Shown here piece by piece: positions 31,055 to 33,335 of a stretch of DNA of 64,000 nucleotides. The stretch is from Spiribacter halobius (lineage in GTDB: Bacteria; Pseudomonadota; Gammaproteobacteria; Nitrococcales; Nitrococcaceae): contig NZ_CP086615.1 in assembly GCF_020883455.1 (NCBI RefSeq), forward strand, positions 1,364,001-1,428,000, in the 5' to 3' direction. The notes under the pieces are model-generated. The model was given only the letters and a program-made list of their open reading frames with translations, had not been told where the DNA came from and did no database searches. A program made the position numbers and the translations under genes. Within the stretch, counting starts at the first letter, position 1, and each line of letters opens with the position of its first letter.

Positions 31055-32266
31055 TCAGGCGGAGGCGGTGGCCAGTACGACACGGAAGACGATGAACTCC
31101 GCCGGGCGCAGCGGGGCGACGCCGACCTCGCAGATCGCCCGGCCTGCGGCGATGTCGGCCGGGGTCATGGTGCTGCGGTCGCAGCGCACGAAGTAGGCTT
31201 CCTGCGGGGTGGCGGCGCGCAGGCGGCCGCGCTGCCATTCCTGGTAGAGGAAGGCGTCCACGGTGCTCCGAAGCCGCGTCCAGAGCGCTTCGCCGTTGGC
31301 CTCGTGGGCGACCCATTCCGCGGTGGTCTCGATGGACTGCTCGAGGTAGCTCAAGTACCGCCGGATGTTGACGTAGCGCCACTCCGGGCTGCTTGAGAGG
31401 GTGCGTGCGCCCCAGACGAGATGCCCGCGACTGGGAAAGCTGCGCAGGCAGTTGACGCCGGCGGGGTTCAGGAGTGCCTGGTCGTGACCGTCGATCTGGC
31501 GGGTGAAGCCGAGCGCGCCAATGACCGCCAGGCCCGCCGGCGGCTTGTGGACACCCCGGTGGTGGTCGTTGCGGGCATACACCCCGGCGATGAAGCCCGA
31601 CGGCGGCAACGGCAGCGTACGCCGCTGGCCCGTGGGGTCGGCCGCGACCACCCAGGGGAAATAGAGCGCGAGACGCGAGTCGTCGAGTCGGCGGGCGAGG
31701 CCCGGCAGGGTGCTGATCGAGTCGTCCTGGTGCGGGTCCACCAGGCCAATTCGATGGCGCATCCGCTGGCAGTGCTGTCGCACGGCCTCGATGACCCGCC
31801 GATGCTCGGCGGCGTCCGCCGCGGCGGCGGCGGGTGTCAGCACCACGGAGACCTCCGGCACCGCCTCCAGCGCTGCCAGCCCGGTGCTGCCCGAGCGTGG
31901 GTCGAGTCTCCCGGCGTAGTCGCTCGCCGTCGGCGTCCCCAGCGGCGCGTCGGCGGCGCTGGCCGGGTCATTGACGCCGGCCACGGTGCGCACCACGAAC
32001 AGACGCTTGCCGCCGTTGCGGAAGAACGCCTGCGTGGCGAGGGCGGTGTGATTCACCGTCGGCCTGCCATCGAGGACGAGGTCGCCGGCGTCGCCGAAGT
32101 GCTGCTCGAATTCCACGAAGCTGCTCAGCCCGAGCGGAGTCCCCCGCAGAGGCCCCTGGCGGGTCGGGCCCACCAGTCCGGCCACGGCGGTGGCCGCGCC
32201 GCGGATGGACGGTGGCAGCGATCCCGTCTCGCCCGCGAAAACGCCCGGCATGCGGTACTCCGGCAT
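31055..32266 (-). CDS. Contractile tail sheath protein (orphan, phage/eCIS type)
   Basis: Structural protein of 403 residues of the contractile-injection sheath family. The N-terminus MPEYRMPGVFAGE matches the PGVYVEE arm, GAATAVAGLVGPTRQGPL the next strand, and the C-terminal part RYLSYLEQSIETTAEWV through RAICEVGVAPLRPAEFIVFRV is the hallmark C-terminal sheath subdomain of extracellular injection systems. It is shorter than long phage sheaths but complete at both ends. No tube, baseplate, tail fibre or ATPase gene is nearby; the only possible partner is the divergent M15 peptidase gene. Whether it is expressed is unknown. Confidence 0.85.
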   Translation of the reverse strand: MPEYRMPGVFAGETGSLPPSIRGAATAVAGLVGPTRQGPLRGTPLGLSSFVEFEQHFGDAGDLVLDGRPTVNHTALATQAFFRNGGKRLFVVRTVAGVNDPASAADAPLGTPTASDYAGRLDPRSGSTGLAALEAVPEVSVVLTPAAAAADAAEHRRVIEAVRQHCQRMRHRIGLVDPHQDDSISTLPGLARRLDDSRLALYFPWVVAADPTGQRRTLPLPPSGFIAGVYARNDHHRGVHKPPAGLAVIGALGFTRQIDGHDQALLNPAGVNCLRSFPSRGHLVWGARTLSSSPEWRYVNIRRYLSYLEQSIETTAEWVAHEANGEALWTRLRSTVDAFLYQEWQRGRLRAATPQEAYFVRCDRSTMTPADIAAGRAICEVGVAPLRPAEFIVFRVVLATASA

Positions 32267-32522
32267 GGCTCGCCCTCCCTCAGTGGCCCAACCGGCTCAC
32301 CGGGCACGCACCGGGCCGGCCGGCAGCTGGCGGGGCAAGCGCCCATACGGATTGTCGTATAGCACCGGATTGCGGGGGCGTCCCGCGTCTGCCGACGGGA
32401 GCGCTGCCCCGGGCCAGCCGTCGCGCCATGCCTGCGGCCGTGGACCGCCGCCGGACGCGGACTACGCTCTTGGGAGCGGCGTCGCGGTGGCCGCGACGCG
32501 ATTCGGGAAGGGGTATGCAGCG

Positions 32523-33335
32523 ATGAATCGGACGAACCTGCGCGTGCTGCAGCGCGTACTGGCCCAAGAGGCGGGTTACGCGGACAGCATCGACGGCATC
32601 CATGGGCCGCGTACCACGGCCGCGGTGGAGCGCATGCTTGCGGCCAGGGCGGCGTCGCTGCCCGACGGTGCGGACCGCTGGTCGGCCCGTCGCCGGGCCG
32701 TCGCCTGCCTGCAGCTGGCCTGCCACGAGCACGAAATCGACGCCGGCGCCATCGACGGCCTCTGGGGCCCGCAGACGGACTTCGCCGCGGATGCCCTGGC
32801 CGAGCGCCTGCGCACCGGCGAGGCGCCCGTGCCCTGGCGGGAGGAGACGCCCGCGGACCACAACCCCAACGGCTGGCCCGCGGAGGAAGGGGTGCAGGCC
32901 GCCTTCGGGGCGCCCTGTGAGGTGTCGCGGGTTACGGTCCCCTGTCCGTGGCGCCTGCAGCTGGCCTGGGATATGCGGCAGTCGGTGAGCGGCATCAGCT
33001 GCCACGAGCGCGTGGTGGAGAGCCTCGCGCGGGTGCTGCAGCGGGTGCACGGGCTTTACGGCGAGGCGCGTCTGCGGGAGCTCGGCCTGCACCGCTACGG
33101 CGGCTGCTACAACTGCCGGCGCAAGCGCCGAGGCACCACCTGGTCCACCCACGCCTGGGCGGTGGCCATCGATTGGGATCCCGCCCACAACCGCCTGGCC
33201 TGGGGGCGGGATCGTGCCCGGCTGGCACGACCCGAGTACGAGGACTGGTGGCGCTGCTGGGAAGCGGAGGGCTGGGTCAGCCTCGGCCGCCATCGCAACT
33301 TCGACTGGATGCACGTGCAGGCGGTACGGATCTGA
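32523..33335 (+). CDS. Peptidoglycan-binding M15 metallopeptidase
   Basis: Protein of 270 residues resembling an endolysin-type D,D- or L,D-endopeptidase. The N-terminal 110 residues hold two peptidoglycan-binding-like units (DSIDGIHGPRTTAAVE and GAIDGLWGPQTDFAAD). The C-terminal domain has the M15 zinc pattern: WSTHAWAVAIDWDP supplies His and Asp, and FDWMHVQ the last His. Start at ATG 32523 behind a GGAAGGGG site; the in-frame ATG further upstream is unsupported. No signal peptide is visible. It is divergent from the tail sheath gene across 256 nt, with the same taxonomic flavour, suggesting a joint origin in a tail-like element. Confidence 0.85.
   Translation: MNRTNLRVLQRVLAQEAGYADSIDGIHGPRTTAAVERMLAARAASLPDGADRWSARRRAVACLQLACHEHEIDAGAIDGLWGPQTDFAADALAERLRTGEAPVPWREETPADHNPNGWPAEEGVQAAFGAPCEVSRVTVPCPWRLQLAWDMRQSVSGISCHERVVESLARVLQRVHGLYGEARLRELGLHRYGGCYNCRRKRRGTTWSTHAWAVAIDWDPAHNRLAWGRDRARLARPEYEDWWRCWEAEGWVSLGRHRNFDWMHVQAVRI

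Follow-up and report, generated by a model that had tools for sequence, protein, structure and literature searches.

A solitary short contractile sheath gene in Spiribacter halobius and its counterparts in several phyla

We analyzed a 64-kb stretch (the window) of the complete 4.17-Mb chromosome of Spiribacter halobius. It contains a gene for a solitary, short, CIS-type contractile sheath of 403 aa on the reverse strand (31055..32266), which was recognized by Pfam, PHROG and an AlphaFold model. The protein matches both Pfam sheath domains, Phage_sheath_1 (PF04984; 55.8 bits, cut-off 31.4) and Phage_sheath_1C (PF17482; 49.9 bits, cut-off 26.9), as well as the PHROG tail sheath families with E-values of 1e-47 to 1e-51; no NCBIfam model matched it. 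Among chains of solved structure, the CIS sheath of Streptomyces coelicolor comes nearest (8bky, E 9e-86). A structure model, calculated by AlphaFold from an input of 32 sequences (the window and the fetched loci), reached a pLDDT of 91.8, with residues 1-14 unstructured in the monomer. When it was compared with known sheaths, as proposed in an earlier note on this DNA, it superposed well on the S. coelicolor CIS sheath (VIA Z 40.6 over 326 residues, rmsd 1.7 Å). The reading frame is uninterrupted and both Pfam domains pass, which bears out the description of the gene as intact, and the codon-position GC of 0.72/0.55/0.90 is the genome's own pattern. The note had further spoken of a full-length sheath with the eCIS/phage C-terminal subdomain. 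The C-terminal domain and the fold were confirmed, but the protein is without a domain of about 300 aa, which its nearest relatives of about 720 aa carry after residue ~111.

Divergently oriented to the sheath gene is a gene for an M15-type peptidoglycan peptidase of 270 aa on the forward strand (32523..33335). With 32523 as its likely start, the intergenic region between the starts of the two genes (32267..32522) comprises 256 nt, in agreement with the earlier description. The protein belongs to the endolysin family PHROG 17001 (E 3.5e-81 over 263 aa, residues 8-270). Its M15 zinc motif HxxxxxxD...H consists of H210, D217 and H264 and does not vary among six aligned relatives. Two PGB-like units had been proposed in addition to the zinc site; the first is a marginal match to PG_binding_3 (24.7 bits, cut-off 24.6), but the second is recognized by eye alone. 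No signal peptide or membrane helix was seen in the protein, no solved structure is related to it by sequence, and a single-protein scan of viral contigs found no close relative. Phage endolysins of PHROG 17001, like those of Paracoccus phage vB_PmaS-R3 and Roseobacter phage RDJL Phi 1, share the M15 zinc motif and match over the full length with about 39-45% identity. In contrast to these endolysins, the M15 gene of the window has no phage genes around it.

According to the gene calls, metabolic and transport genes are located on both sides of the sheath and M15 genes, among them genes for an FMN-dependent dehydrogenase, MFS, TetR and YdbH. No phage tail or head genes were called within ~30 kb of the sheath gene, as they would be for a prophage tail remnant, and none of the tube, baseplate, spike and gpD genes with which a CIS sheath is encoded was recognized at the locus. 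For a closer search, HMMs for the components were built from the collected CIS loci. Those for tube, gp25, baseplate J, spike and gpD comprise 57-153 sequences; few sequences went into the HMMs for tail protein I and for the cap, and a cap gene that Pfam found in a Hydrogenophaga locus escaped the cap HMM. By phmmer and HMMs, no tube, baseplate, spike, gp25, gpD, LysM or cap gene was recognized in the window, and tail protein I was likewise not detected there by HMM. The baseplate and spike searches covered the window, those for tube and sheath the whole genome. A tube was found in the genome neither by PF06841 nor with a profile built from six CIS tube sequences. This profile recovers the tubes of the CIS-bearing relatives G002, G031 and G180, where the match in G002 is not independent since some rows of the profile come from that genome. 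The search of the whole genome with Phage_sheath_1C returned the window gene and one sheath at 2.94 Mb that belongs to a Mu-like prophage, the sole contractile prophage detected via its sheath and 1.5 Mb away from the window. The absence of tube, baseplate and spike genes nearby, as described in the earlier note, was thus upheld and for the tube extended to the whole genome, which also contains no further CIS-type sheath; a contractile phage tail cluster close to the window, which would have contradicted the note, was not seen in the sheath search. We infer that spike and baseplate of this type are absent beyond the window as well. A sheath for which no tube, spike or baseplate of its type is encoded cannot work as an injector.

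The sheath shares its two Pfam domains, its fold (Z 31-41) and the motifs VWGARTLSS and FVRCDRSTMT with the CIS/eCIS sheaths of S. coelicolor (8bky/9gts), Pvc2-4 and Afp2-4. These sheaths are encoded beside tube, baseplate and spike genes, whereas the window sheath stands alone. Its best matches by identity (55-60%) are sheaths of ~720 aa from CIS clusters of Rhodocyclales and relatives. In blastp it aligns to them in two blocks, residues 1 to ~111 and ~111 to 403, which are separated by ~300 residues in the relatives (L063, L064, L084-L093 and others). The split matches place the missing insert approximately at residues 103-123 (aa ~111; 31898..31960, reverse strand). In trees computed on the shared sheath core, the window sheath nests within the Rhodocyclales-type CIS-sheath clade with a support of 99 (96 rows) or 100 (47 rows). 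As it lies inside a clade of long sheaths, and relative to that clade is without the ~300-aa domain, the short form is most simply explained by a loss of the inserted domain on the window branch. A single-protein scan of genome contigs found no close relative; with query A1, 42 viral contigs were matched.

Around 100 sheath loci were sorted by the CIS genes recognizable in the fetched DNA, mostly 10 kb on each side of the sheath gene. Sheaths borne by CIS clusters are mostly longer than 500 aa, whereas those without CIS genes nearly all comprise 363-409 aa. About 14 solitary short sheaths of this size with no CIS genes nearby, including the one in the window, were found in several phyla. Besides the window, they occur in G032, Pseudoxanthomonas daejeonensis and two Gammaproteobacteria/Proteobacteria genomes (G244, G089). 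Further ones belong to Methylophaga muralis, Polaromonas and Phenylobacterium, to Acidobacteriaceae, Holophagaceae, Geothrix and an Acidobacteria MAG, and to Nocardioides agariphilus and an Actinobacteria MAG. Three longer sheaths without recognized CIS core genes (L128, L135, L136) were left out of the count. The junction at which the inserted domain is missing is the same in all solitary short sheaths. Short sheaths also occur within CIS clusters (G002, G007, G009, G179, G388, L112), so that shortness alone does not exclude a use in a CIS. In a gammaproteobacterial sample of 369 species, 40 have a sheath match; the context was viewed for about half of these, and four proved solitary and short. 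The genomic contexts of the solitary sheaths are unrelated; examples are positions flanked by Fe-S cluster-assembly genes or by glycogen genes and one next to nitrate reductase. Apart from common enzymes or sensors and from the orthologous pair of loci in Holophagaceae, they have no neighbor family in common.

It was considered whether all solitary short sheaths belong to one horizontally spread family. This was rejected (p-AU 4.4e-5), as forcing them into one clade costs 117.5 log units. The label solitary/short changes 11 times on the full tree, with at least 6 changes forced by well-supported branches, and five of the solitary short sheaths do group with weak support (83). Judged from these trees, sheaths became solitary and short several times. 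The sheath of a Hydrogenophaga MAG (L108:9400-11134, forward strand) was rejected as solitary; a Pvc16_N cap gene lies directly upstream of this short sheath and the contig ends 1.2 kb downstream. It may represent a cut CIS cluster or a mini-locus, and stands outside the count of 14 although it is included in the tree rows and in the residue counts for arms and core given below. Two loci may be mentioned for their surroundings. In a genome of the same order as the window, a nitrate reductase operon follows closely downstream of a very divergent solitary sheath of 380 aa (L022:9665-10807, forward strand; 33% identity). In another locus (L107:9836-11185, forward strand), as read from the sequence, the solitary sheath lies between IscU-like and IscS-like genes on the opposite strand.

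The earlier note suggested that sheath and M15 peptidase might form a minimal two-component device and that their adjacency should be looked for in other genomes. The divergent adjacency in the window speaks for such a device, and so does one CIS operon in which both kinds of gene occur: the gene for the closest M15 relative (G031, 64% identity) heads this complete operon and immediately precedes the sheath gene. However, among nine other genomes with this M15, G031 is the only one in which it lies beside a sheath. Two have a CIS elsewhere (G190, G249), and six of the nine are without such a sheath. Of the M15 relatives, that of G583 lies in a Mu-like prophage and that of G878 in what is probably a gene-transfer-agent cluster; those of G754, G521, G629 and G023 stand alone. 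None of the other solitary sheaths examined has an M15 neighbor, and delivery of an enzyme would be impossible for a sheath without tube and spike. In these genomes the device lacks conserved pairing and is largely refuted; we regard it as very improbable. The M15 gene is selected, to judge from an omega of 0.21 against its G031 orthologue. Its product probably is a lysin of phage/CIS type that was acquired separately and has a role of its own, and its adjacency to the sheath gene may reflect a past shared island. By eye, an M15 relative in a genome of the same phylum lies beside an apparent gene-transfer-agent cluster (L250:342-10888).

Selection on a solitary sheath can be followed in the Holophagaceae. 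Three species keep a syntenic solitary sheath of 398 codons with an omega of 0.13-0.15 at dS 0.48-0.93, similar to the values of its neighbors (0.10-0.19), glycogen-enzyme genes among them; one pair of genomes is colinear over 4.2 kb around the gene. The Holophagaceae sheath is kept under purifying selection, as these rates indicate. In a fourth genome (G474) the solitary sheath is reduced to a piece of 83 aa, which may be what the loss of such a gene looks like. For the window sheath no close orthologue was found and hence no omega is available. It keeps 75% of the columns fixed family-wide, compared with 59% of those fixed in its clade only (Fisher p 0.049). In a neutral simulation carried to the divergence of the window gene, 3% of the runs were still free of stop codons, compared with 18% at 80% identity, so the open frame taken alone is weak evidence. 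Column retention, codon-position GC and the open frame together favor past or present selection on the window gene.

These data bear on the proposal of the earlier note that the two genes are relics of a tail-like element; a CIS island would have degraded and left only these two genes intact, with no present function. In favor of this proposal, the G031 M15 gene heads a CIS operon, and chance poorly explains two rare CIS/phage-type genes only 256 nt apart. The long branches of the solitary sheaths, 0.95-1.13 for the window compared with mostly <0.3 for its CIS siblings, and the real fragment in Holophagaceae G474 point in the same direction. However, the sheath of G031 sits in a different CIS clade of the tree from the window sheath, no other CIS remnant was recognized in the window, and the 403 codons are intact with preferential retention of fixed columns. 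Moreover, comparable solitary sheaths elsewhere are under selection, and several lineages have lost the inserted domain. A functionless relic is possible, but we hold it to be less likely than not.

A further explanation would be a split machine, in which the sheath cooperates in trans with components, such as a tube, whose genes lie elsewhere. Tail-tube genes (PF06841) that are themselves solitary were found in four genomes with a solitary sheath, far away from it, on the forward strand in L169:9694-10128, L170:10241-10675 and L167:9755-10276 and on the reverse strand in L168:2313-2756. In the Holophagaceae the same tube is present in 3/3 solitary-sheath genomes, compared with a solitary-type tube in at most ~4/74 others; it is syntenic with a gene of ~135 aa upstream and is under selection (omega 0.14). 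These carriers are, however, close kin, and no baseplate or spike was recognized near any of the tube carriers. The remaining 10 of the 14 solitary-sheath genomes searched (Hydrogenophaga counted), that of the window and nine others, have no tube anywhere. For these reasons a split machine appears unlikely. Orphan hcp/vgrG modules of the T6SS are also single genes of an injection machine located away from the main cluster. They carry tube and spike components and serve the T6SS of the same cell, whereas here a sheath is found for which there is no matching tube.

We therefore favor, with a probability of roughly 0.4, that the window gene encodes an exapted stand-alone sheath core, which became short by domain loss and probably forms oligomers without a tube, and that the M15 gene is separate from it. 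In this reading it descends from a Rhodocyclales-type CIS sheath of ~720 aa, the inserted outer domain having been lost along with all other machine parts and the conserved fold retained, and the gene represents one instance of a transition to solitary short sheaths that recurs across phyla. The lone sheath would most likely act in the cytoplasm and assemble into tube-less, polysheath-like rings or tubules, giving a polymer with a scaffolding, sequestering or structural role. It is known that sheath proteins can polymerize without other phage proteins, giving polysheaths (PMC6357053), and tube-less oligomers or tubules are for this reason proposed as the likeliest form. A C-terminal truncation by 200 aa does not prevent the formation of sheath tubes (PMC8618960), whereas some simple one-domain prophage sheaths stay unpolymerized when purified (PMC9230969). 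Laboratory-expressed gp053 of FV3 and 041 of RaK2 are likewise sheaths without a tube, and their additional regions are dispensable for tube formation (PMC6357053, PMC8618960); these polysheaths are laboratory products, whereas the lone sheath of the window is kept by nature. A continuing function of the window copy, the formation of a polymer and any cellular role are inferred. No neighbor gene common to the solitary sheaths points to a role.

The arms that link the subunits, whose position we take from established sheath structures, seem to be less well conserved than the core. Both arms can be recognized in the sequence of the window protein. Of the otherwise fixed residues, solitary sheaths keep 72% in the arms at the N- and C-terminus and 86% in the core, and the window sheath 62% and 80%, respectively; distant CIS sheaths show a smaller bias in the same direction, so that this difference is only a hint. 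The loss in the arms could mean poorer polymerization or plain relaxation. A conserved core with relaxed linking arms is also the make-up expected of a poisonous subunit. Such a truncated sheath would be built into the sheaths of invading phages or of a rival's CIS and act as a dominant negative, and its presence in genomes without a CIS tube would fit. On the other hand, PADLOC has no match for the sheath or the M15 protein, no defense genes were recognized among the neighbors, and CIS seldom invade cells. We consider interference of this kind quite unlikely.

On the wider scale, it appears to us an even chance that contractile sheaths, the window gene included, were domesticated many times independently in several phyla for a stand-alone, core-only function other than injection, in some cases with a solitary tube. 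Recurrent lone sheaths, at least one group of which is selected, hint at such a use of the sheath alone. That the outer domain was lost time and again suggests that it may be needed only together with tube and baseplate. If cells use lone sheaths, injection is not the only function of the contractile polymer. A recent large CIS survey drops candidates without tube, baseplate or sheath-initiator genes (PMC12210884), and lone sheaths would stay invisible to it by this filter. In a limited literature search, which is not a proof of novelty, no published account of solitary sheaths was found.

The Mu-like prophage with the second sheath of the genome carries in addition a diversity-generating retroelement (L003:5959-8818; about 2931958-2934817 of contig C1). 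It consists of a reverse transcriptase, bAvd and an Mtd-like variable protein, together with a pair of 131-nt repeats (template and variable repeat) of 91% identity.
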